This document shows, piece after piece, positions 1,163-19,661 of a DNA stretch of 23,767 bases. Within the stretch, counting starts at the first letter, position 1. Each line of letters opens with the position of its first letter. A model generated the notes under the pieces. That model was given only the letters and a program-made list of their open reading frames with translations, had not been told where the DNA came from and searched no databases. Position numbers and translations under genes: made by a program. Source of the DNA: a virus; the IMG/VR virus record IMGVR_UViG_3300005915_000115, positions 1 to 23,767 of that record; one strand, written 5' to 3'.

Positions 1163-2728
1163 CTATCCAACCCTAAGCGTTTTCATTCTGCCGTAATTTA
1201 TGTAGGTAACCATTATAAGCCAACGACCAGAAGTCAATGTGTCCCAGTCTGCTGTTGGCGTGAAATTTATGTAAACTGTATTAATAGAACTAGTCGCCGC
1301 AATCTTTGGTCCATTGCCTGATGCCGTACTAGATACATCATTGGCGGTATCAATATTCGCCGCTGCCAACAATTGATCACCTCCCGAGGCATTGCCAACA
1401 TCAACAGACATCACGGCCGATCCTGATCCCACCACAGTTTCATAACATCGCAAATGCACTGATAATATTTCGCCATAAGCAGGTATTGCATCAACTATGG
1501 TGACTACCTGTTCAGTAGTATTTGCCACGGTGTTGTCTAATACATAATCGATATCTGTACCAGTTTCAGCAGCATCGACATCAATAGACTTAATGAGAGT
1601 TACCGTTGAGTAAAACCGCTTTGAATCATGCATAAAAGCCACATCAAGTGGATAGCTATCCCCTGCTAGATTACGTAGGTTTCCGAATTTGCCAAATTTC
1701 GACCGAATATATGCTTGGTTGCCATCAGTTCCAATCTGGATGTTATTTTCACCTGTTGAATTATCCGTATAGCCAGCAGTAAAAAACTGTGACAATATTA
1801 AATTCTTAATACAGGTTGCACCTATGATCATAGGAGGTTTACTACTCTCGTGACGACACTGGAAAGTGTTTGAATTTGCCGAAGTACTCAATTCGATATC
1901 TGATGCAACTCCAGCAGATGCCATACCCTCGAAATCTCCAGAATAAAACATTCCCGCTGTCCGGTAAACATACAGACCGTGAGTGTCACAGTTGGTCATT
2001 ATGATATCGTGAAACTTGTTTGCGTTGGGGGCATTTAAGGCTGAGATTCCCGTCGATGCATTGAAATCATACCCAACACTGATGCCTACATCCCATTTAG
2101 CGACAAGGATATGGTCAAACTTATTATCATAAACAGTTTTACCGGTTGGATATAATTCGATACCTGTGCTATCCGCTATGGAAACAGCCTTGCCCTCAAT
2201 CAACATGTCTCTGAACGTGTTTTTGTACACACCCATTCCGACTATTTGTAATCCGACCGCTGCTGTGGTTGACTCTAAAGCTAACCCATGTACACCACCA
2301 TATTGACATCCGAATGGACCCGTGTTGTCTCCTACTCTCAGTATGGAACCTGTCGTAGTCGATAGGATGGTTGCACCATACCCCCAGATACTGATGTCAT
2401 CTATTCTTGCCAGGGGATTTGCCAACACAATCTCATCAGTGGTAGCGTATATTCCAGGGGGCAAGAGAACAATCCCCTTACCGGCGGCAATGGCCGCGTC
2501 AATAGCTTTCTGGATCGGGACCACGTCATCCGTGGTACCATCACCGGCCGCGCCGAAATCATCGTGCATCACGTTGAATACGGGGCTTGCACTACTGTAC
2601 ATCGTGTCCAACTGCAAAGCAGCAATCGAAGACAAATCATGTGTGCCCGTGGCAGAATGGTCAGTCAACAACCATGCTTCTAATTCTGCCCACCAATCCC
2701 AATCACCTTTTGAGGGTAAATCAGTCAT
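1163..2728 (-). CDS. Tailspike with pectate-lyase-fold beta-helix
   Basis: This 521-residue protein has a clear pectate-lyase-superfamily entry motif at residues 57-80 (DFGAAGDGTTDD, then PIQKAIDAA). It is followed by a long stretch of short beta repeats to about residue 370, as in right-handed beta-helix tailspikes and capsule depolymerases. Residues 393-512 form a separate C-terminal domain that also occurs in the 508-residue repeat protein at 14790-16316, so it is probably a trimerisation or shared attachment domain. The N-terminal 50 residues are rich in Trp and may anchor the spike to the tail. The gene starts 1 nt after the gpM-like gene. Polysaccharide binding or cutting is inferred from the fold; no catalytic residues can be assigned by eye. 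Confidence 0.8.
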   Translation of the reverse strand: MTDLPSKGDWDWWAELEAWLLTDHSATGTHDLSSIAALQLDTMYSSASPVFNVMHDDFGAAGDGTTDDVVPIQKAIDAAIAAGKGIVLLPPGIYATTDEIVLANPLARIDDISIWGYGATILSTTTGSILRVGDNTGPFGCQYGGVHGLALESTTAAVGLQIVGMGVYKNTFRDMLIEGKAVSIADSTGIELYPTGKTVYDNKFDHILVAKWDVGISVGYDFNASTGISALNAPNANKFHDIIMTNCDTHGLYVYRTAGMFYSGDFEGMASAGVASDIELSTSANSNTFQCRHESSKPPMIIGATCIKNLILSQFFTAGYTDNSTGENNIQIGTDGNQAYIRSKFGKFGNLRNLAGDSYPLDVAFMHDSKRFYSTVTLIKSIDVDAAETGTDIDYVLDNTVANTTEQVVTIVDAIPAYGEILSVHLRCYETVVGSGSAVMSVDVGNASGGDQLLAAANIDTANDVSSTASGNGPKIAATSSINTVYINFTPTADWDTLTSGRWLIMVTYINYGRMKTLRVG

Positions 2729-2729
2729 A

Positions 2730-3164
2730 TCAATATCCTAACCGGCCTTCGCCTAATCTTCCACCTGGCCATGCGTATGCGTGTGTCTGGCCCGATTCTA
2801 CAAATGTCATTGTGGCGTTCCATCTCATTTCAGGGAGCATTCTAGTCACAAGACGGAAATCTATATCACCCAGAAACTTGAACTCATACGTTTGGAAATC
2901 TTGCGTGTTGAAATACAAGAATGGCAATGATCCATGACCAACGGTATCCTCAAAAAACGCCTGAAGGTCAAGACGGTCTTGGTTATCCATTCCTGATATC
3001 TTGATTCCAGGGAATACGTTTGGCGTCCATGTATGCCTGGCCCTAGTTGACCGAAGGCCATTCTCCATTTTTGATTCGATAATATGCGATGAAGCTGGTT
3101 TGAATCTCCAACTATTCGCATCAATACCAATCGACAGAACCGGGAAACTTGAAGGATCAGCCAT
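2730..3164 (-). CDS. Minor tail protein, lambda gpM-like
   Basis: This 144-residue protein lies directly after the tape measure, the position of gpM in lambda-like tails. Its core (residues about 35-125) has the pattern of that family: a basic ENGLRSTRARHTW segment, a central segment with DLQAFFEDTVGHGSLPF, and a C-terminal strand-rich part ending near WNATMTFVE. The ATG shares one base with the stop codon of the tape measure gene (TGATG), so it is probably translationally coupled. The likely role is in tail-tip assembly at the end of the tape measure. The Gly/Tyr-rich end (GGRLGEGRLGY) is probably disordered. A distal-tail-type protein is the main alternative. Confidence 0.6.
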   Translation of the reverse strand: MADPSSFPVLSIGIDANSWRFKPASSHIIESKMENGLRSTRARHTWTPNVFPGIKISGMDNQDRLDLQAFFEDTVGHGSLPFLYFNTQDFQTYEFKFLGDIDFRLVTRMLPEMRWNATMTFVESGQTHAYAWPGGRLGEGRLGY

Positions 3165-5704
3165 CAGAACCCCGCCATTCTCGGATCTCTCCGTCTCTTT
3201 GCTCTAACGAATACATCAATCACCATACTATCCATTGCCTGTCTGATGCCCGTCACTTCGGCCTCAATTGGCACGTCAGGACTAGTCACATTGATATCTA
3301 CATTCGGTTCCGATCCAGCGGGCGTTACCTTCTCACCCCTGTGCAGTATGGCCGGGAAGGCATCAGGATCAAGCCCATTCTGGAAACTCGGAGCGCCAGC
3401 GAATGCAAGCGGAGGAACACGGATTTGTGCCGCCGTTTGACCGACGATGCCACCCGTCGCATAGGAATCAGATATCCCTGTTGACCCCGTAGCTGTAACG
3501 GCCATCGGATCAACCGGAACAGGTGCGGAAAGGCTTGGAAATAATCCGGTCACCGCCTTCAACATCTGCAATCTTATAATCATCTGCATGACATCTCTGA
3601 TGATAGATTCTGCCATACTATGAAAATCGGCTTTTCCAGTCATGGCCAAATCAGTAAGCGATCCGCTTATCTCGCCCATCGACCTACTTACAACGCTCGA
3701 TATCTGCTGAAAACTCGTGCCAACACTATTAGCCCAATCCTGGAAATATTCGCCTGGTTTCCTTCTTTTCTTTTTCTCATCAGGTCCACCCGGTTTTTTC
3801 TCAGGCTTAAATGCCGCTGTCATTTTGTTCTTGATATTGATCAGTGTGTCAACATAAGGCTGGGCAGAATCTTTTATCTCCTGCCACATAGCCGTAAACT
3901 TTCTTACGTTATCTTTAAGGGCCAGGTCTCCCATTCGTTTTTCTATGATGTCCATTGTTTCGCCATTGGTAGCAGCGATATCGGTAAAGGCTTTGTTAAA
4001 ATTAGTCTTTATCTCTTGTGCAAACCCATCAAAAATTCCAGATATATTAGCCCGTCGCCAATTTTGTTGGGCTTGCTCGCCTGCTCTTTTATATAATGCA
4101 GGGTCAGAGATTTCTCTTTGTATTCCAAATGCAGCACCTGTTTGACGACTGCCTGTTGGTGCGGGCAGGTTATTATCTGGTCCAAAAAGTCTATCTTGTC
4201 GTTTTTGTAATTCATCCTTATATATCTCATTCGTTGCTTGCCGTAGTGCTTCGCCGCTCAATCCCTTGTTAAACATTCCCTGTTTAATGGCTTTCCAAAC
4301 ACCTTCGCCTATGCGGAATCCCAACTCAATTAAAGACACTCCAAAGGCCTGCATTATCTGGATGATCGAATTAGTAATAGCCTGGAATCCTCTGTGATAA
4401 TCAGTTTTTAAGAGTGCCAGGAAATCAACCATCACACCCGTTACAAAACCAACTCTATCCGCAAAAGCCATAGCCCAGTCTTCAATCTCACGTCTGTTTT
4501 CCCTTATCCATAAACCTATCTTTGCGATTGTAGGTGCAAGGCGTTCTCCGATTGCCATCGAGACACCGACGATATTATTCCATGCGATCTTCAACTGAGA
4601 CGTGAATGATTTCAATTGCTTTTCCGCAACCTCATCTGTAATACCCTTCATGCCAATAAGTTTATCACGATAGTTTTCAATTGCATCGCCCAAACCCAAC
4701 AACGGCAATATCGCCTGTTGACTTCTAGCCTTAAAACCAAGCAAGTCCAATGTTGCTACCTTTTGCTGTACAGACATCCCTTCCAGTACAGATGTGATGT
4801 CCCTCACAATAACACCCATAGACTTTAGTTCGCCTTGAGCATCAAATATATTTATTCCAAACTTATCCCATTCTGCCCTATTCTTTTTAAAGCCAGCAGT
4901 CAACAGTCTAATCATTCGACTGAACATTGTACCCGCCTGCTGTCCCTTTACGCCCTGGTCAGCATAAGCCGCTAAAACTGCAACGCCATCCTCTACCTGA
5001 ATATTATATGCTTTGATTGCTGCACCGGCTTGAGTAGTCAATGCGAGTGAAAATTCTTCTGTCGTGGCATTAGCTAGACGATTTGCACCAACAAGTATAT
5101 CAGTGACTTTTATCAGGTTTGTTCTGTTCTTTACTGCATCCTTTTCCTTGAGGCCCAATGCACTTAAAGCGTCAGTTGATAAGTCAGTGGCTCTTGACAT
5201 ATCAAACATGCCTGCAACTGCGAATTTATTAACAACATCCAATGCAGCGATCGATTGTTTTGCGTCTAATCCAGCCGAAGCAAGAAAGAAATACGCGTTT
5301 GCTAATTCTTTGGCAGAGGTAACACTCACGAAAGATATCGTCTTCGCAGTTTCCTCCATTTGTTTCTGCATTTGAGTAGATACATCACCCATGATAGCAA
5401 GTGACTTTGTCATAGCACTATCGAAGTTTGCAAATGCTTTAACTGATGCCAATAGAAAAGCACCGAAAGCCACACCCATTAGTTTTGCGAAACGTGTTAC
5501 CGTCGCCAACATTCTTTTCATTGAATTGAATATTGCAGTACCTAGTTTTTTGAACTGAGCAGCTATCATGAAAGTTAACTTTTTCATCATAGCACCAACT
5601 TTAACGCCGAAAGTTTTAAACATCCTCCCTGCTTTAGCAAGGCCGGCTGCCAATTCTTTAGTCGCTACCGTTATCCGTACTGATATTTTTCCTAGGTCTG
5701 CCAT
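3164..5704 (-). CDS. Tail tape measure protein
   Basis: This 846-residue protein is the longest in the window and follows the tail chaperones, as tape measures do. The first 70 residues are basic and helical; a hydrophobic segment lies near residues 75-95 (LMGVAFGAFLLASV). Residues about 95-330 match the TP901-type tape-measure core (FDSAMTKSLAIMGDV, then ASAGLDAKQSIAALD and VAVLAAYADQGVKGQQAGTMF). Alanine- and glutamine-rich helices follow. It sets tail length and is thought to be ejected into the host during infection. The size is modest for this family, implying a fairly short tail. I chose ATG 5704 (MADLGKIS); an in-frame extension to 5758 adds a non-conserved segment. The chosen start lies 44 nt inside the end of the GT frame. 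Confidence 0.9.
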   Translation of the reverse strand: MADLGKISVRITVATKELAAGLAKAGRMFKTFGVKVGAMMKKLTFMIAAQFKKLGTAIFNSMKRMLATVTRFAKLMGVAFGAFLLASVKAFANFDSAMTKSLAIMGDVSTQMQKQMEETAKTISFVSVTSAKELANAYFFLASAGLDAKQSIAALDVVNKFAVAGMFDMSRATDLSTDALSALGLKEKDAVKNRTNLIKVTDILVGANRLANATTEEFSLALTTQAGAAIKAYNIQVEDGVAVLAAYADQGVKGQQAGTMFSRMIRLLTAGFKKNRAEWDKFGINIFDAQGELKSMGVIVRDITSVLEGMSVQQKVATLDLLGFKARSQQAILPLLGLGDAIENYRDKLIGMKGITDEVAEKQLKSFTSQLKIAWNNIVGVSMAIGERLAPTIAKIGLWIRENRREIEDWAMAFADRVGFVTGVMVDFLALLKTDYHRGFQAITNSIIQIMQAFGVSLIELGFRIGEGVWKAIKQGMFNKGLSGEALRQATNEIYKDELQKRQDRLFGPDNNLPAPTGSRQTGAAFGIQREISDPALYKRAGEQAQQNWRRANISGIFDGFAQEIKTNFNKAFTDIAATNGETMDIIEKRMGDLALKDNVRKFTAMWQEIKDSAQPYVDTLINIKNKMTAAFKPEKKPGGPDEKKKRRKPGEYFQDWANSVGTSFQQISSVVSRSMGEISGSLTDLAMTGKADFHSMAESIIRDVMQMIIRLQMLKAVTGLFPSLSAPVPVDPMAVTATGSTGISDSYATGGIVGQTAAQIRVPPLAFAGAPSFQNGLDPDAFPAILHRGEKVTPAGSEPNVDINVTSPDVPIEAEVTGIRQAMDSMVIDVFVRAKRRRDPRMAGF

Positions 5705-6334: not shown

Positions 6335-6907
6335 TTACTCCTGTATCATTGTCATTCCAACCCGGTCGCCTTGCGCCCGGTCATTGTCTACGACTGCATT
6401 CCATTCACAGTCTGAAATTACTATGTCTCGTTTGCCAAAAACCAGATCGAACTTGGACGGGCAGAAAACACGGTATAGGATCAAAGCAATCTTTTTGTTT
6501 GTGCCTGGCACAATATGTTCGAACAAAAGGCTTTGGTAATTGGCCACGTTTACCCTGTTGTGGCCGAATCTGATCGCATCATATGAAGTGCTGGACGTGG
6601 CCGGGCTGAATGATGCCGGGTTATATGACGGGGATCCGGACACGGTCGAGAGGTCGCCGGTATCGATCCCCATCGCAAGCCGCAAAGCGGATTGGCTCAG
6701 TTCAGCCTGTGAACATTTAAGGACCAACTGTTCGTCAACGTCAAAATACCGGACGCCGTCATAATTGATCAGCGATACGTCAGAGGGGGGGAGACGCAGC
6801 CCTAGCCGCTTATAGCGGAGAGTGACCGGCCCATGTAGGTATCCGGTCTCGATGGCATTCAAAGACAGCGTGCCACCGCCAAGAGTGACCAGGTCGCGGT
6901 CAGACAT
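6335..6907 (-). CDS. Tail tube protein paralogue 2
   Basis: This 190-residue protein is clearly related to the product of the gene just upstream. Both open with a D-[LN]-x-TLGGG-x-L-x-LN segment followed by GYL and a basic strand, both have a mid segment of the type xALRLAMG or xMRLALG, then a Pro/Ser-rich FDP/YNP-SP stretch, and both end with RAxGDRxG or RSAGDQLG. A gene of this size directly before the tail chaperones is normally the major tail tube protein. The ATG overlaps the TAA of the upstream copy (TAATG). Which of the two copies is the main tube subunit cannot be told; one may form a distal or decorated part. Confidence 0.68.
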   Translation of the reverse strand: MSDRDLVTLGGGTLSLNAIETGYLHGPVTLRYKRLGLRLPPSDVSLINYDGVRYFDVDEQLVLKCSQAELSQSALRLAMGIDTGDLSTVSGSPSYNPASFSPATSSTSYDAIRFGHNRVNVANYQSLLFEHIVPGTNKKIALILYRVFCPSKFDLVFGKRDIVISDCEWNAVVDNDRAQGDRVGMTMIQE

Positions 6908-7479
6908 TACCCTGCGTCCTGGACCTGTCGTGCGATGAATCCGAGTTGATCGCCAGCCGATCGGGCCGGTTGGATTATAGCTTCAAATTCCACATCGGTA
7001 AACGTCTGAGTCGTTCGATCAAACGGCAGATTCATATTGAAATTGCTCACCGATTCGTAGAACACAACCACAATAGCAAATGCGTTACTGTCGGAATCGG
7101 TCGGCATGATATGAGCAAACTGCAACGAAACCTCATTGACTGACTTGTCGCCGCCAAGGTTGATGATATCCCACGAACTGGATGCCGCCGGCGAATAGCT
7201 GGATGGATCAAAGTTCGGGAAACTCTGGCTCCCGTCAATCGCAGTAGATTGGCCCAGGGCCAGCCGCATGTTGGCCGCTGTAATCTCGGCAATGCTCGCG
7301 GTTAGACGCATCCGCTCTAAGGCCTTGAACCGCCGGACAATGCCCTGCTTGTTATTGGGGATGAAATCAACCGGTTCACCCTCGTAAATCAGGTTTACCG
7401 TACCATCGAGATAACCCACATCGACATTGTTCAGCTTAAGAATACCGCCGCCCAACGTGGTCAAATTTCTATCGCCCAT
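6907..7479 (-). CDS. Tail tube protein paralogue 1
   Basis: This protein of 190 residues from ATG 7479 (191 if the adjacent in-frame ATG 7482 is used) is the first of two tandem tail-tube-like paralogues. It starts MGDRNLTTLGGG, has the shared AANMRLALG segment near residue 85, a Pro/Ser-rich middle (FDPSSYSPAASS) and the RSAGDQLG C-terminal motif. Its start overlaps the last codons of the glycosyltransferase gene by 11 nt. Position before the chaperones and tape measure supports a virion tube role. The two copies have diverged well beyond a recent duplication, so they probably have distinct roles. The family is inferred from context, not from a diagnostic motif. Confidence 0.68.
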   Translation of the reverse strand: MGDRNLTTLGGGILKLNNVDVGYLDGTVNLIYEGEPVDFIPNNKQGIVRRFKALERMRLTASIAEITAANMRLALGQSTAIDGSQSFPNFDPSSYSPAASSSWDIINLGGDKSVNEVSLQFAHIMPTDSDSNAFAIVVVFYESVSNFNMNLPFDRTTQTFTDVEFEAIIQPARSAGDQLGFIARQVQDAG

Positions 7480-8431
7480 CATTCAGCCTTTCAAATACGC
7501 CCTGGAACACTTCATCGTATTTCCGGGCTATCACATTAATGTCATGATGCTTTTCGGCAAATTCTCTGCCGTTTTCGCTGATCGTCTGCCAAAGATATGG
7601 ATCATCTTTCAACATTTTGATCTTTTCCTTAATATCGGCTGAATTGCGACAAATGAACAAACAATCCTCCATGTGCCGTAATCGCTCGCCATGGAAACCA
7701 ACTGGCGTAGTGAGTACGGGAACCCCACAGGCAAGGGCCTCCATGGTCACATTCGAACATCCCTCACCCAGGGAAGGGAGAACAAGGCAATCAATTTTGT
7801 GGTAGAATCCCTCTACCATATCCTCGTGTTCAAGCTGATTATGCGCGTGCAACCGCTTGATATGGTTCACTTCTGAATACAGATCAATCACGGCCTGAGT
7901 GAAATACTTGTACCCCTTGTATTCCATCCCTGGCCCGTGGATATTCCCCGCGAATCCCACAGTGAACTTGCGATCCGGGCGTTCGGCTTGAGGCCTAAAT
8001 TTGTCAAGATCAACCCCATTGGGAATCAGAATAGTGTTTTCATTGGCAGCAATACCGATATTCATCAGGAAATCGTTCGTTGCAATTACGGCCGGGCATT
8101 GTTCAAGCCATTCGTCATACCGGTGGGTACTTTTTTCGTCCATAGCAAAGCCGCCTATTCTGCATATTGTGTTTTCAAAAGTATCCATCAGTGGGAGCGT
8201 GCATAGGTTCTGCAGTAGAACCAGGTCAAAATGCTCCAACAAAGACGGGTTGAGCCTGATCGGTGCCAGCGTGCGTTGGTTAAACTCACCACATGTGCCG
8301 CAAATCAGCCTCACGTCAATTTTAGGCTGTCTGATGATCCTGGTGATGTCGTAATCCCATTGGGCCATGTAACCGGGCATGCACAGGCCCCAGGACCATG
8401 TAAGAGCGTTTTCAATGGATAGTATATTCAT
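7469..8431 (-). CDS. Glycosyltransferase, GT4/GT-B fold
   Basis: This 320-residue protein (from ATG 8431) is a full-length retaining-type GT-B enzyme. The N-terminal Rossmann-like half starts MNILSIENALTW. The linker has IPNGVDLDKFRP at residues 136-147, the nucleotide-sugar half starts GFAGN near 159, and the signature GEGCSNVTMEALACGVP near 222-238 contains the EX7E pair (E223 and E231) typical of GT4 enzymes. It should transfer a sugar from a nucleotide-sugar donor; the acceptor is unknown. The ATG overlaps the TGA of the methyltransferase (ATGA). Lying inside the tail module, it may modify a virion protein or a host surface glycan. An upstream in-frame extension to 8533 would lie inside the methyltransferase gene and is unlikely. 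Confidence 0.88.
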   Translation of the reverse strand: MNILSIENALTWSWGLCMPGYMAQWDYDITRIIRQPKIDVRLICGTCGEFNQRTLAPIRLNPSLLEHFDLVLLQNLCTLPLMDTFENTICRIGGFAMDEKSTHRYDEWLEQCPAVIATNDFLMNIGIAANENTILIPNGVDLDKFRPQAERPDRKFTVGFAGNIHGPGMEYKGYKYFTQAVIDLYSEVNHIKRLHAHNQLEHEDMVEGFYHKIDCLVLPSLGEGCSNVTMEALACGVPVLTTPVGFHGERLRHMEDCLFICRNSADIKEKIKMLKDDPYLWQTISENGREFAEKHHDINVIARKYDEVFQGVFERLNDGR

Positions 8432-8949
8432 TTCACAAATCCGTCCGTCTTCATCCCTACGCAAAGTATAGTTGTCTCGGGCCTGGCCGGTTGCCGGTCG
8501 ATTACCAATCCGCGTATTACCCTGAATCCGCAAAACTCAAACAACATAGACAACGTTCTTAGGCTGAATGCGTGGAAGTGTTCCATCTCCCGCTCAGGCT
8601 TCACTAGACGCCCTGGCACGCCCCTATCACCGGTCATTGACCAGATACCGTATTCAGCATTCGGAACCACTACCGCCGCAGTACCGCCCACCTTTAGGCA
8701 CCTGGCCCACTCTCTCAGGGTGATCACGGGCGCCACCTGGACATGCTCAAATGAGTTGCAAGCCACGATATAATCCAGGGTGTCGTCGGCAAATGGTAGG
8801 CTCTGGGCCTCGGCCCGGATCACTGCCGCCGGCGTGTCGGCCATGTCCACGCCCAGGGAATTGCCAATCTGAACGGATCCGCACCCGATGTTTATGCCAA
8901 ATCCCTTGCAGTGTTCAGCCAATAGATGTGTCTCTTTTGGTATGCTCAT
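8428..8949 (-). CDS. Class I SAM-dependent methyltransferase
   Basis: This 173-residue protein (from ATG 8949, with a GGAG site 10 nt upstream) shows the class I methyltransferase pattern. Motif I is INIGCG at residues 19-24, an acidic residue follows in GVDM, and a motif typical of Methyltransf_11 enzymes reads AEAQSLPFADDTLDYIV near 47-62. CNSFEHV comes next. It is short for the family but looks complete, since the following strand pairs (LKVGGTAAVVVPN) are present. The substrate is not evident; next to a glycosyltransferase, sugar or glycan O-methylation is the simplest guess. Such small enzymes often sit beside glycan genes in phages and capsule loci. The frame can be extended upstream to 9009 but the ribosome binding site argues against it. 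Confidence 0.85.
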   Translation of the reverse strand: MSIPKETHLLAEHCKGFGINIGCGSVQIGNSLGVDMADTPAAVIRAEAQSLPFADDTLDYIVACNSFEHVQVAPVITLREWARCLKVGGTAAVVVPNAEYGIWSMTGDRGVPGRLVKPEREMEHFHAFSLRTLSMLFEFCGFRVIRGLVIDRQPARPETTILCVGMKTDGFVK

Positions 8950-8971
8950 TCTTTTTTCTCCTTTGGTAGGG

Positions 8972-9214
8972 TTATTCAAACGCTCTTTTGCTCTTGACGC
9001 ATGATACAACGTTGTGCAGTGATTTAAAGCACTTTAACCACGGCGGGTATGGGCAGACGAATACATCGGCCTCAATCTCAGCCAGTGCACCATGGTTGTC
9101 GTTCAGTTCCTTGGTGGTCAGGTATACGTGTTCGTTTTCAGACTTTGAGGCAATCCATTTCAGAGATACACAGAAAGCCCAACTTGGATCATCAATCAAC
9201 CAACATATTTTCAT
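8972..9214 (-). CDS. Orphan GT-B N-terminal-domain-like protein (short)
   Basis: This 80-residue protein starts MKICWLIDDPSWAFCVSLKWIA, the beta-strand, loop and helix start seen in GT-B glycosyltransferase N-terminal domains, and continues with a second alternating unit (EADVFVCPYPPWLKCFKS). No nucleotide-sugar-binding half follows, so it cannot be a complete enzyme. Its ATG overlaps the TGA of the preceding short gene (ATGA), and the methyltransferase starts 22 nt after its end. It may be a decayed glycosyltransferase, a separately encoded half, or an acceptor-binding or partner subunit. I do not recognise a specific family. Confidence 0.5.
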   Translation of the reverse strand: MKICWLIDDPSWAFCVSLKWIASKSENEHVYLTTKELNDNHGALAEIEADVFVCPYPPWLKCFKSLHNVVSCVKSKRAFE

Positions 9215-9513
9215 GTAAGTATCTCCATCTCCACTCCGTTTGATTTCATCCCAAGCCTACCCACCGCATTTAACATCATCCCAGGTTCCAGTGCCGCTAT
9301 ATGCATGGCCATGATTATATCGCAATCTATTTTACTCACTCTCTCCAAAAATACATCCATACGTTCCATCAGGTATCCACTCCTGGCAGCAGGAAAGGGG
9401 TGTCTTTTGCGGGATATGAAGTGATGATCGTAATTCGGTAATCGTTCGGCTATCTGCTCAGACTGGATATCATGACCCCATCCGTGGCCGTCAACTATCC
9501 ATAAAATTCTCAT
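9211..9513 (-). CDS. Orphan GT-B N-terminal-domain-like protein (short)
   Basis: This 100-residue protein begins MRILWIVDGHGWGHDIQSEQIAERL, closely matching in style the starts of the next short gene and of the full GT4 enzyme in this cluster (strand, WxxD or DGxxW loop, helix). It continues with helices and a strand ending CDIIMAMHIAALEPGMM. The C-terminal donor-binding domain is absent, so sugar transfer by this protein alone is unlikely. It overlaps the previous ORF by 23 nt and the following gene by 4 nt (ATGA). The conserved order and coupled starts argue against random decay. The likely role is in the same glycan pathway as the GT4 enzyme, but this is inference. Confidence 0.5.
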   Translation of the reverse strand: MRILWIVDGHGWGHDIQSEQIAERLPNYDHHFISRKRHPFPAARSGYLMERMDVFLERVSKIDCDIIMAMHIAALEPGMMLNAVGRLGMKSNGVEMEILT

Positions 9514-11173: not shown

Positions 11174-12067
11174 TCAGTCAGCCGCCCCTGCAGCACTTCG
11201 TGTGAAAAGTGTTCCGTCATCATTTATTGGTTGTTCCATCAGTTTCGTCGTACCGTTGGCTTTGTAGACTTCAACCTCACCGTTCGTGGTGTTCGTTATT
11301 ACCTTGTGAAAGTTGTATTCCCACAGCCGGGCAATTCCGTCTAATACCGATTCCGTGGTCACGTCTGGTGCGCCTGCTGCCAGGTCTGACAATGTCTGTG
11401 CCCATATCTCTGTAACGGTGGGGATGGTTTCATCAGTTATTGCGTGTGCAACAGTCACGTCCGTGGGTGTTGCAAACCCAGTCGCCTTTGAGGCCGTTCT
11501 GGAAGACGCATCCGTCACAACAGCATTAGTAACTTTCGTAGTTGTAGTCGCCAGTGTCACACCGGCAATCGTGTCGCCTACCACAACATAGTCAGCCGAT
11601 GGTAAGGATCTGGATTCAAACTGTGTATTAGTCGGAACAATGGTGGCAGCACCTACAGACGGATTGATCGTTACTCCTGCGGCAGCAGTAACAGCCTGCG
11701 TTTTTATCGTTTCAACATCAACTTTTTGTGTGGCGGTATCCAAATCGAACGCATGTTGTGCCGACGCATTGCCGTAAGTCTCTACAATTATGACTTTGTC
11801 AAGGAATACTTTTGTCGCTGCATCCACTACTTTAATAACAAGCCGAGCCGCTTCAGCCTCAGTAGCTGTGATGACAATAGAATAGGTTGACCCCTCATCA
11901 GTGGCCGTGTTCGTACACTGTGTGCTTGCTCCGCCATCTTTCATAACTTCGCAGTCAGCGGCAGCAGGAACCCAATCAGTACGAAGGTCAACTCCGTCAA
12001 CTTCGTAAAGATCAAAGTCAACTATAAACTCTACGCCATATTTCCGTAAACATATTCCTTGGCTCAT
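11174..12067 (-). CDS. Virion-associated protein with MSQGI N-terminus (fibre or neck-like)
   Basis: This 297-residue protein starts MSQGICLRKYGVEF at ATG 12067. The first 110 residues look like a beta-sandwich (VDFDLYEVDGVDL, then STYSIVITATEAEAARLVIKV), followed by a low-complexity Thr/Ala/Val section and a C-terminal strand-rich part (NGEVEVYKANGTTKL, then DDGTLFTRSAAGAAD). This layout resembles phage adaptor or fibre proteins in structural operons, but I cannot name a family. A second, diverged copy of its first eight codons lies at 12639, on the far side of the HNH gene, so its 5' end was apparently duplicated or rebuilt by that insertion. The start overlaps the TGA of the chimeric frame that crosses the insert (ATGA). 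Confidence 0.6.
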   Translation of the reverse strand: MSQGICLRKYGVEFIVDFDLYEVDGVDLRTDWVPAAADCEVMKDGGASTQCTNTATDEGSTYSIVITATEAEAARLVIKVVDAATKVFLDKVIIVETYGNASAQHAFDLDTATQKVDVETIKTQAVTAAAGVTINPSVGAATIVPTNTQFESRSLPSADYVVVGDTIAGVTLATTTTKVTNAVVTDASSRTASKATGFATPTDVTVAHAITDETIPTVTEIWAQTLSDLAAGAPDVTTESVLDGIARLWEYNFHKVITNTTNGEVEVYKANGTTKLMEQPINDDGTLFTRSAAGAAD

Positions 12068-12078
12068 ATTTTTAACCC

Positions 12079-12107
12079 TTGACAATCAACCGAATACTTA
12101 GTACAAT
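12079..12107 (+). promoter_or_regulatory. Sigma70-like promoter of the HNH gene, leaderless layout
   Basis: TTGACA at 12079-12084 and TACAAT at 12102-12107 are separated by 17 nt. The expected transcription start, about 7 nt past the -10 box, is at 12114-12115, which is at or next to the ATG at 12115. No ribosome binding site lies upstream of that ATG. The promoter points against the surrounding operon. Confidence 0.7.
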
Positions 12108-12114
12108 ACCCTGT

Positions 12115-12621
12115 ATGAAATATACTAATAGAACAGGGCAAAGATTTGGATCTCTTATAGTGTTGGACCGTACCGCTGATATTATACGATCCAGAAATTG
12201 GGTAGCTTTTAATTGTGTGTGTGATTGTGGATCCGCTAAGGTCGTCAAAAGCAACGATTTGCAAAGCGGTAATGTTACTTCTTGCGGGTGTAAGTCCAAC
12301 AGAAGCAAACTTACTATTGATTTTAAGTCTGAGTTTCACACATGGGCCGATTTTCGGGCTAGATGTGGCAATCCTAAACATAGGGCTTATAAATGGTATG
12401 GTGCTAGAGGAATAAGTGTTTGTAGTAGATGGGAGAATTCGTTCGCTAGCTTCCTTCACGACATGGGCGCTCGTCCCAATGGATTGACTCTTGACCGTAT
12501 CGACAATAACGCTGGATACTGTCCTGATAATTGTAGGTGGGCTACCCGAAAGGAGCAGGCCAACAATAGACGCAAAAGAAATAGCTATAATCGCGGCCTT
12601 GATGGTCAATTTTGCTCGTAA
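12115..12621 (+). CDS. HNH-family homing endonuclease
   Basis: This 168-residue protein is on the strand opposite to its neighbours. The N-terminal part has the phage HNH zinc-binding pattern: [10 protein letters not shown], then NCVCDCG (C34, C36, C38) and TSCGC (C57, C59). The C-terminal part has [20 protein letters not shown] near 94-113, [19 protein letters not shown] near 126-144 and EQANNRR, the HNH nuclease core of this family. Such genes spread by cutting alleles that lack them. It lies between two copies of an MSQGI gene start, and its TAA stop is formed by the antisense of the Leu-Arg codons of the displaced copy. I chose ATG 12115 because the upstream part of the frame overlaps the promoter. 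Confidence 0.9.
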
Positions 12622-12638
12622 TTGAATGCCCTGGCTCA

Positions 12639-13634
12639 TTATGCATTCTCCATTCGTCGTCTTAAAATTACTATTCCACTTGCTGCTACAAACTCAAACG
12701 CCCCAATGTCAGTAGTTGTGTCTTGAGGCCGTGATGTCCCTATGATGTCATCCGAGGGTGCCCCTGAGTTCGTTCCGTTATCTATACAATTACCACCAGC
12801 TTTAAGTGAGAAATCACCATTAGCTGGATCGTTAAACTCATTAGTCCAATCACCTCCCAAAGGACCCACCGCATTAGTCCCATCCCCATCATCCGAAGCA
12901 TTATAGTCTGCTGTTATAGTTCCGTTGAAATCGTTTGAAGTATTTCCAATCGCACAGTTAGTTGCTGTAACAGTTCCACTAGACCGATTAATGCCATAAA
13001 AGCCTCCATATATAGTGGAATTATATAAATTCATTGTTCCTGTTGTCCATAATATGGATCTTTGACCAGATGTTTCAGTAGCAGGTAGACCAAAGAATAT
13101 AGAATTATATATATCAACAGTACTGACCCAGCCAGAATCACTAATTAACAGATAAGTATTAGCCGTTCCTGAAGCCGATCCCTTAATTATTACATCTGAG
13201 AATATTAATTCACCACCACTAGTTCCTGTAGCTAACCAAAATCCTCTCCTTTCTACTGTAGAAGATTGTACTAACCCTTGTAATCCATCGACATGTATGA
13301 AATCTTCATGGAATTTTATGAGATACGAGTTAGAATCATTATTATTTAATAGGTACTTTGTCTCATCAAATATTCCATCCGCAGGAAAGTCATCCTGAAT
13401 AATGGTAATCAAATGAGTGGTGTCTGTAGTCCATCCAAGTATATCAACTAAAGTAGTATCATCGGTGCCAGCCGAAGCCCTTAAATGAACAGTATGAGTA
13501 TTTCCATCACTAACCAAGTTTGTCTGCTCACCAGCTTCCCAAGCATTTAAAGAGGCATAGGCATTAACCCACGAATCACCCGAGCCATCTCCAGCCACTA
13601 CATCAGGATCTACATATCTTGTGACTTCAGCCAT
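12639..13634 (-). CDS. Right-handed beta-helix protein (accessory fibre or spike)
   Basis: This 331-residue protein starts MAEVTRYVDPDVVAGDGSGDSW, the opening of many secreted parallel beta-helix proteins, continues with short strand repeats (VDIYNSIFFGLP, MNLYNSTIYGGFYG, VTATNCAIGN) and ends with DIIGTSRPQDTTTDIGAFEF, a typical closing motif. This fold is common in surface-binding or polysaccharide-active phage spikes. I chose ATG 13634, which lies 2 nt after the upstream stop; a frame start at 13649 is inside that gene. The gene is visibly more AT-rich than its neighbours, which suggests recent arrival. No catalytic residues are assignable. Its position between capsid and connector genes, not with the tail tip, is unusual. 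Confidence 0.65.
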   Translation of the reverse strand: MAEVTRYVDPDVVAGDGSGDSWVNAYASLNAWEAGEQTNLVSDGNTHTVHLRASAGTDDTTLVDILGWTTDTTHLITIIQDDFPADGIFDETKYLLNNNDSNSYLIKFHEDFIHVDGLQGLVQSSTVERRGFWLATGTSGGELIFSDVIIKGSASGTANTYLLISDSGWVSTVDIYNSIFFGLPATETSGQRSILWTTGTMNLYNSTIYGGFYGINRSSGTVTATNCAIGNTSNDFNGTITADYNASDDGDGTNAVGPLGGDWTNEFNDPANGDFSLKAGGNCIDNGTNSGAPSDDIIGTSRPQDTTTDIGAFEFVAASGIVILRRRMENA

Positions 13635-19027: not shown

Positions 19028-19067
19028 GACATTAAAATCGGGATAATCTGAAAATATGATAAAGATA

Positions 19068-19097
19068 TTGACAACGTGCGTATTTGGTGCGTATAAT
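19068..19097 (+). promoter_or_regulatory. Consensus sigma70 promoter of the plus-strand cassette, leaderless layout
   Basis: TTGACA at 19068-19073 and TATAAT at 19092-19097, both perfect consensus, are separated by 18 nt. The predicted start is 19104, which is the A of the HTH gene's ATG, so the mRNA would have no leader. Two copies of GTGCGTAT (19076-19083 and 19087-19094) lie 11 bp apart across the spacer and -10 region. Confidence 0.85.
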
Positions 19098-19103
19098 TCA
19101 AAC

Positions 19104-19286
19104 ATGGATAAAAGTTCAATAACTAAACTCAGGAAGAGTACAGGATTGACAGTTGAGCAATTCGCAAAGAAATATAAATTCAACAGCAGGACATTCGAAG
19201 GATGGGAGCAAGGCCGGCAACCTGGGATATTCAATATGATGCGACTGAGACAAATAAGATCAGTCAGAAAAAGGCATGGACACTGA
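19104..19286 (+). CDS. Small XRE-type HTH DNA-binding protein
   Basis: This 60-residue protein is one helix-turn-helix domain. SITKLRKSTGLTVEQFAKKYKFNSRTFEGWEQGR matches the XRE/HigA-type pattern (L-R-x-x-x-G-L-T-x-x-x-F-A, turn, T-x-x-x-W-E-x-G). A basic tail (SVRKRHGH) follows and there is no second domain. It is transcribed from a consensus promoter against the surrounding head operon. The start ATG 19104 is at the predicted transcription start; an in-frame frame opening at 19056 would lie upstream of the promoter. It could control its own promoter, where two 11-bp-spaced repeats lie, or act on another phage or prophage promoter. No toxin partner is evident. Confidence 0.75.
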   Translation: MDKSSITKLRKSTGLTVEQFAKKYKFNSRTFEGWEQGRQPGIFNMMRLRQIRSVRKRHGH

Positions 19287-19323
19287 TATTGCTATCAAGG
19301 CTATTAAGAAGGGGATAGGATGA
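19276..19323 (+). CDS. Possible 15-residue leader ORF coupling HTH and next gene
   Basis: ATG at 19276 starts a 15-codon frame (MDTDIAIKAIKKGIG) that overlaps the end of the HTH gene and stops at TGA 19321-19323, overlapping the next ATG at 19320 (ATGA). The same last seven residues (AIKKGIG) and ATGA junction recur at 19675-19698. It may only be a coupling device. Confidence 0.3.
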   Translation: MDTDIAIKAIKKGIG

Positions 19324-19325
19324 AA
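19298..19325 (+). repeat. 28-bp direct repeat carrying a ribosome binding site, copy 1
   Basis: Identical to 19673-19700. It includes CTATTAAGAAGGGG, the spacer GATAGG and ATGAAA, so it supplies the ribosome binding site and start codon of the 113-residue protein. Confidence 0.9.
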
Positions 19326-19661
19326 CGAAGAGGATTTCTACAATTACTCGGGATTGCTCCGATAGCCATAAAAGAGGCATTGAAACCAGAGAACCTAGAC
19401 CAAAAGGCCAAAGACTTCCACAATGCCTCATCACCATCGAAACAGGTTTCATCTTATATAGATGGATGCATGGCGTCATCGTGTGCTTATGTAGACACTA
19501 CACATATACGAGATGTTATTGCGGGTGAAAGACTCAGTTCTGGCGATTTTGTTTCAATCACAAATGGTAAAGCATACAAAACCACTGATATAAATTCGCT
19601 GTCCGCTGGTGTTTGCTTTAATTCATGCGTAAAAGGTAAAAATACCATAGTTCAACTTTAA
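19320..19661 (+). CDS. Plus-strand cassette protein with Tat-like start and decoration-like C-terminus
   Basis: This 113-residue protein starts MKRRGFLQLLGIAPIAIKEA. The RRGFLQ start and following hydrophobic stretch resemble a twin-arginine signal, though the hydrophobic part is short and no AxA cleavage site is clear. The C-terminal half (RDVIAGERLSSGDFVSITNGKAYKTT, then AGVCFNSCVKGKNTIVQL) reads like the small beta domain found in phage decoration proteins, including this phage's own at 17590-18057. Four cysteines are present. A strong AGGGG ribosome binding site lies inside the 28-bp repeat. Function is unknown; a surface or virion-decorating cargo protein is one reading. Confidence 0.5.
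   Translation: MKRRGFLQLLGIAPIAIKEALKPENLDQKAKDFHNASSPSKQVSSYIDGCMASSCAYVDTTHIRDVIAGERLSSGDFVSITNGKAYKTTDINSLSAGVCFNSCVKGKNTIVQL

Follow-up and report, generated by a model that had tools for sequence, protein, structure and literature searches.

Introduction

Mobile ORFs (mORFs) of fungal mitochondria are the closest precedent that we found for the locus described here. In Glomus/Rhizophagus, atp6, atp9, cox2 and nad3 are known to carry mobile ORFs that supply a foreign C-terminal end; an endonuclease ORF lies in the gene end, the synonymously diverged foreign end is the working one, and the native end is stranded beyond the insert (PMC3630166). The foreign and native atp6 ends share 63.5% nucleotide and 91% amino acid identity (PMC3630166), and an Allomyces atp6 mobile ORF with a foreign gene end is cited in the same paper. 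All of these fungal elements are mitochondrial, encode LAGLIDADG or GIY-YIG enzymes, and replace C-terminal ends on the same strand (PMC3630166). In Ophiostoma mtDNA, according to a mention in PMC4019555, a homing endonuclease gene (HEG) at the end of rps3 displaces the short coding end downstream, so that the C-terminus is duplicated.

In phages, the free-standing homing endonucleases of T4-like viruses (seg, mob) are intronless, sit at gene boundaries and are associated with co-conversion of their flanks (PMC2988022). The start of mobE overlaps the stop of nrdA (UAAUGA), and mobE is coupled to nrdA (PMC2988022). Phage nuclease genes have also been placed at the boundaries of genetic exchange (available excerpts of PMC10448857). 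For the HNH enzymes of Skunavirus, the available excerpts of PMC12724721 describe replacement of the recipient target by the donor allele, and donor alleles are thought there to be resistant to cleavage in free-standing homing generally.

Here we describe an HNH homing endonuclease gene in a whole viral contig of 23.8 kb (IMG/VR record IMGVR_UViG_3300005915_000115; 'the window'). As in the fungal mORFs, the window holds a native gene end left on the far side of the insert and, bordering the insert, a diverged working end. Unlike the fungal elements, ours is an HNH gene in a phage; related layouts occur at gene starts as well as gene ends and in both orientations, and the complement of the HNH gene forms an open antisense 'bridge'. 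The Ophiostoma rps3 case, as far as it is described in PMC4019555, likewise differs in concerning a mitochondrial gene end invaded in the same orientation. With T4 seg and mob the locus shares an intronless homing gene at a gene boundary, but the T4 account includes no stranded host gene start and, although segD is antisense, no bridge is described (PMC2988022). It also resembles the systems of PMC10448857 and PMC12724721, in which an HNH or other homing gene lies at a recombination boundary; the excerpts of those papers describe neither a stub and a donor start resolved to the base in one locus nor an antisense bridge. The searchable phage literature, which leaves most subscription journals outside it, yielded no gene-start replacement and no antisense bridge, and priority is thus not established.

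Results

An HNH gene lies antisense in a phage structural operon

The minus strand of the window carries portal, head protease, major capsid, neck/tail completion, tape measure and minor tail genes. Within this series lies an HNH gene on the plus strand and, as the initial annotation had reported, the start of the same minus-strand gene is present on both sides of it: MSQGIQLR, with the A of its ATG at 12639, and MSQGICLR, with the A of its ATG at 12067. The features of the region are:

11174 to 12067, minus strand: working gene, 297 aa; begins with MSQGICLR, the replacement start, and has a weak Ig-like match to phage neck/connector proteins
12064 to 12639, minus strand: bridge ORF, 191 aa, complement of the whole HNH gene; runs from TAATG to an ATGA that overlaps the new start
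12076 to 12080, minus strand: Shine-Dalgarno-like sequence AAGGG, 8 nt ahead of the new ATG; overlaps the HNH −35 box
12079 to 12107, plus strand: sigma-70-like promoter, TTGACA-17-TACAAT (11/12 matches), lying 7 nt ahead of the HNH start codon
12115 to 12621, plus strand: HNH homing endonuclease gene, 168 aa (phrog_374, E 7.5e-53); last codon and stop within the stranded start
12616 to 12639, minus strand: native start left behind, 8 codons, ATGAGCCAGGGCATTCAATTACGA (MSQGIQLR); closest to uninvaded alleles such as L126
12639 to 13634, minus strand: upstream gene with C-terminus GIVILRRRMENA; stop TAA and old start codon overlap (TAATG), and motif and abutment match those of uninvaded relatives

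Along the minus strand, TAATG leads into ATGAGCCAGGGCATTCAATTACGA and then, in reverse, into the HNH gene from its end; on the far side of that gene, ATGAGCCAAGGAATATGTTTACGG opens the working gene. The last codon and stop of the HNH gene (TCG TAA) are supplied by the reverse complement of the 8-codon stub.

The HNH protein matched a second profile (phrog_3377, E 1.6e-39) and has hundreds of relatives in phages. In the long ORF, homology to other HNHs sets in only at about residue 13, which makes ATG 12115 the most likely start of the gene, in preference to TTG 12079. In an alignment, the 10-mer TTGTCAAGGG is common to the window and to a second invaded locus, L131 (see below), at the same spacing of 8 nt before the new start. 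This box can be read in two ways, as the −35 end of the HNH promoter and, on the opposite strand, as the Shine-Dalgarno-like sequence. A pattern search for further TTGTCAAGGG boxes before a start returned only the L131 contig, plus matches without the family start.

An Rfam search of positions 11500-13200 gave no match at E <= 1, so no intron RNA was matched; on this ground, and because the gene restarts with its own ATG, we rejected a homing gene borne on a group I or group II intron. An intein was rejected since the HNH gene lies on the opposite strand and is not an in-frame, same-strand insertion. Pfam searches of the HNH and target genes gave no match, and NCBIfam gave no meaningful match.

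The target gene had no match among named phage records. Its N-terminal domain of ~112 residues is conserved and the rest is variable. A model of this domain reached a mean pLDDT of 65 (modest confidence), and in a PDB search with the model the top matches were neck/connector proteins of phage Bas63, none below E 0.001, followed at lower ranks by Sf14 and P74-26 neck proteins and many Ig domains. The predicted likeness to neck/connector proteins fits the position of the gene in the operon, without being proof.

Elsewhere in the window, an adjacent pair of paralogues (MSDRDLVTLGGGTLSLN... and MMGDRNLTTLGGGILKLN...; 6335-7482, minus strand), possibly duplicated tail tube genes, lies ahead of the tape measure region. 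Glycosyltransferase-like and methyltransferase-like genes are found within the structural operon (7469-9513, minus strand), and two small ORFs, one of them HTH-like, lie antisense within the head gene region (19056-19661, plus strand).

Uninvaded relatives have a single start, and the site has been invaded repeatedly

HNH-free relatives of the target gene have the same layout with a single start at the position of the 12639 copy. In the nearest of them, L002, which has no insert, the junction reads ...IVILRRRREAA-TAATG-AGCCAAGGAATCCAG... Of 70 family members, 63 have an ORF of at least 50 aa that ends no more than 25 nt from the gene start, and in 45 an RR motif lies close to the ORF end. The view taken in the initial annotation, that the HNH gene was inserted at the start of a structural gene (here, one of the head-neck region) and that the 12639 copy is the native start, is borne out by these relatives. 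The doubled start is not due to chance: each uninvaded relative has a single copy, directly adjoining the upstream gene.

Just before the invaded gene, different upstream genes share the C-terminal motif G-I-V/P-I-L/F-R-R-R-x-E-x-A/G (12641-12680 in the window; relatives L123-L207), which is perhaps a docking tail.

Invasion is sporadic, and affects three of ~76 distinct family starts (the window, L131 and L177). In L131 the HNH is a sister of that of the window (57% protein identity; tree support 0.983) and lies in the same antisense orientation, behind a promoter that matches the consensus at 12/12 positions (TTGACA-17-TATAAT); just 5-6 nt of the native start are retained. The HNH of L177 belongs elsewhere in the tree and has the opposite (sense) orientation. 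The L177 stub, ATGGGAAGCATTTACCTACGCAAG (MGSIYLRK), is paired with the working start GTGGGATCTATCTATCTTCGCAAA, read as GTG-GSIYLRK, and the serine codons differ (AGC vs TCT). The stubs of the window and L177 end at codon 8, no more than one codon apart on the LRK motif, which suggests that this is the region of the cut.

The two starts are diverged alleles

The stub and the working start of the window are identical at 17 of 24 nt. Their differences had been described as synonymous, which is correct for four codons but not for codon 6, where CAA (Q) is opposed to TGT (C). The 12067 copy is therefore best described as a diverged, mostly synonymous replacement start. Uninvaded alleles are nearer to the 12639 copy, as predicted: the stub matches L126 at 13/15 nt and the working start matches it at 9/15, with 11/15 nt as the best match of the working start to any uninvaded allele. 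A stub drifting freely would keep seven of its eight residues with P ~0.001 in the window, in agreement with the earlier statement that this is not a recent duplication, and with P ~0.0004 in L177. Taken together, the low probability under drift and the nearness of the stub to uninvaded alleles suggest that the two copies more likely diverged in separate genomes before coming together. We found no donor genome, and the working start could be matched to no donor lineage. Measured by nearest-neighbour identity to uninvaded alleles, the working start is ordinary in all three invaded loci.

The same layout recurs at other HNH loci

Across 211 distinct HNH loci, we looked for peptides that recur, encoded on the same strand, in both flanks of the HNH gene; mismatched flanks served as the control. 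Thirteen loci scored at least 40 (1.1 expected) and four scored at least 50 (0.14 expected). The cases that we inspected lie at the starts or ends of unrelated genes (L262, L363, L239, L101, L232, L276 and L073/L082) and are scattered across the HNH tree. L262 concerns the start of a glycosyltransferase-like gene. L363 concerns a long gene to which no identity was assigned, with an empty site in L382 and ATC at the start codon position of the stub. In L073/L082 and L276 the layout occurs at gene ends. We set aside an assembly chimera because the layout recurs in independent contigs.

In the pooled pairs, 82 of 128 changed codons are synonymous against 14% expected; the screened pairs were chosen by peptide similarity, which accounts for part of this excess. 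The screen played no part in finding the window and L177. Several of the weaker matches will be due to chance, and matches such as L065, L119, L122, L356 and L369 look like chance and were set aside.

At L101 (2955-3540), the HNH is an in-frame continuation of the stranded start of a RuvC-like gene and so uses the start of the host gene; the working gene restarts at TAATG.

The first eight HNH regions taken from named phage records showed no duplication. In 16 HNH loci from named phage records (L208-L215 and L396-L403), the HNH gene runs in the same direction as its immediate neighbours, unlike in many environmental contigs. Prokaryote genomes gave few HNH matches and made a poor replication set.

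The complement is open more often in antisense than in sense HNH genes

The bridge frame stops wherever the HNH gene has TTA, CTA or TCA. None of these occurs among the 8 Leu and 15 Ser codons of the window HNH, and its complement is therefore open, an outcome with probability 0.003 under host codon usage and 0.009 under the gene's own. The L131 bridge (1935-2504) is likewise open, from the old ATG to an ATGA at the new start.

The open-frame hypothesis was stated before a second set of HNH loci was collected. Of 239 HNH genes, 228 could be classified by the orientation of their flanks, with gene orientation taken from simple ORF calls. The complement is open in 12/32 HNHs with both flanks antisense, in 1/104 with both flanks sense, and in 9/92 with mixed flanks. 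Host codon usage predicts 4.4 open antisense and 5.6 open sense cases; own synonymous usage, fitted on non-antisense genes, predicts 0.42 and 1.18. Under this second control the antisense genes are ~28-fold above expectation and the sense genes match it. Without the window and L131, 10/30 antisense complements remain open (P 0.004 from host usage; Fisher 8e-7 vs sense genes), although the very small P values depend on the fitted model and simple gene calls, and the effect size is the safer statement. Identity among the 22 open HNHs is at most 58%. Thus, antisense-lying HNH genes avoid TTA, CTA and TCA, so that the complementary strand stays open, and this is the new observation here.

The open frames also tend to end where the next gene begins. 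With start distances read by a caller that seeks starts near the HNH, the frame ends −5 to +13 nt from the next start in 17/21 open cases with antisense or mixed flanks, vs 3/18 non-open antisense cases (p 9e-5), and the junction is exactly ATGA or GTGA in eight of the 21. The bridge products of the window and L131 are 36% identical, less than their HNH proteins (57%), so openness, and not the product, seems to be kept; on these identities, and with no family match, we rejected a functional antisense protein. With only 12/32 antisense HNHs open, the bridge is not obligatory, and the working gene has its own Shine-Dalgarno-like sequence, so that coupling might be dispensable. A separate locus, L059, contains two different HNH genes, both antisense to their neighbours and both with an open complement.

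On balance, we think it somewhat probable that antisense HEGs in phage operons are selected for a stop-free complement, which would serve as a translated linker coupled to the upstream stop and the next start. Codon composition could leave the frame open as a functionless by-product, and indeed GC-rich HNHs are open more often and open complements occur among mixed-flank HNHs. We regard this explanation as rather unlikely, however, because the window and L131 are AT-rich, because the excess over own-usage expectation is confined to antisense genes, with sense genes at expectation, and because the frame stops fall at the start of the next gene.

Discussion

Several other histories could leave two similar gene starts around an HNH gene. 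The initial annotation proposed that the 12067 start had been specially recoded, by selected synonymous changes that destroy the nuclease target and keep the protein. The mostly synonymous differences agree with this, and some barrier to self-cleavage is to be expected of a free-standing homing nuclease (available excerpts of PMC12724721). Ordinary divergence between homologues yields the same pattern, though; codon 6 alters the amino acid; and the working starts of all three invaded loci are unexceptional among uninvaded alleles, so that a donor allele copied during homing fits better and special recoding seems unlikely to us. A short target-site duplication that arose at insertion and later drifted would be simpler, and the stub and working copy of the window do share their first codons. 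We nevertheless hold it to be very unlikely, since a stub free of protein selection should not differ mostly synonymously (P ~0.001 in the window and 0.0004 in L177) and should not be nearer to the alleles of other phages than to its neighbouring copy.

It is still less probable, and in our judgement hardly credible, that the HNH gene was inserted between tandem paralogues, the first of which has since been lost but for eight codons. The initial annotation had named tandem MSQGI genes in relatives as the finding that would point this way, and a second family gene is present in just one of 98 family loci (L128). There, the two target-family genes (within 1535-4492) are separated by another reading frame and do not abut, and their starts differ. 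In addition, the stub of the window lies exactly at the only start position of uninvaded relatives, and the same layout recurs in unrelated genes.

The explanation that we favour overall, and consider likely, is that a free-standing HNH gene entered a phage neck/structural gene at its start, antisense to it, bringing a donor-derived start and a translational bridge. On the evidence of the stubs, the HNH nuclease would cut the recipient gene start near codons 8-9. The gene-side end would then be repaired by homologous recombination from a donor that has the HNH gene before the homologous gene, copying in both the HNH gene and the donor start. At the other end, a join without extended homology may have linked the insert to the broken native start, which remains as the stub. 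Comparison with the relatives shows that the native 8-codon start is still coupled to the upstream gene. The new start, by contrast, would be out of reach of ribosomes from that gene if the insert could not be translated. The statistics and anatomy of the open frames suggest that ribosomes arriving from the upstream gene start at the old ATG, cross the insert and are handed to the new start by the ATGA overlap. With no TTA, CTA or TCA in the HNH gene, ribosomes could translate across the insert, and translation of the operon could be preserved. The open complement and the ATGA junction would in this way restore translation over the insert and protect against Rho-dependent polarity.

If this is true, one stretch of DNA encodes a nuclease on one strand and serves as a ribosome bridge on the other. 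Each such locus may preserve the donor allele next to the old one, the latter interrupted close to the cut site, and nuclease targets could then be readable from sequence in uncultured phages. The layout suggests a route into an essential gene without host death, which is to bring a new gene end and to keep the other strand translatable. It would also offer a strong and testable example of a coding sequence whose antisense strand is under selection.
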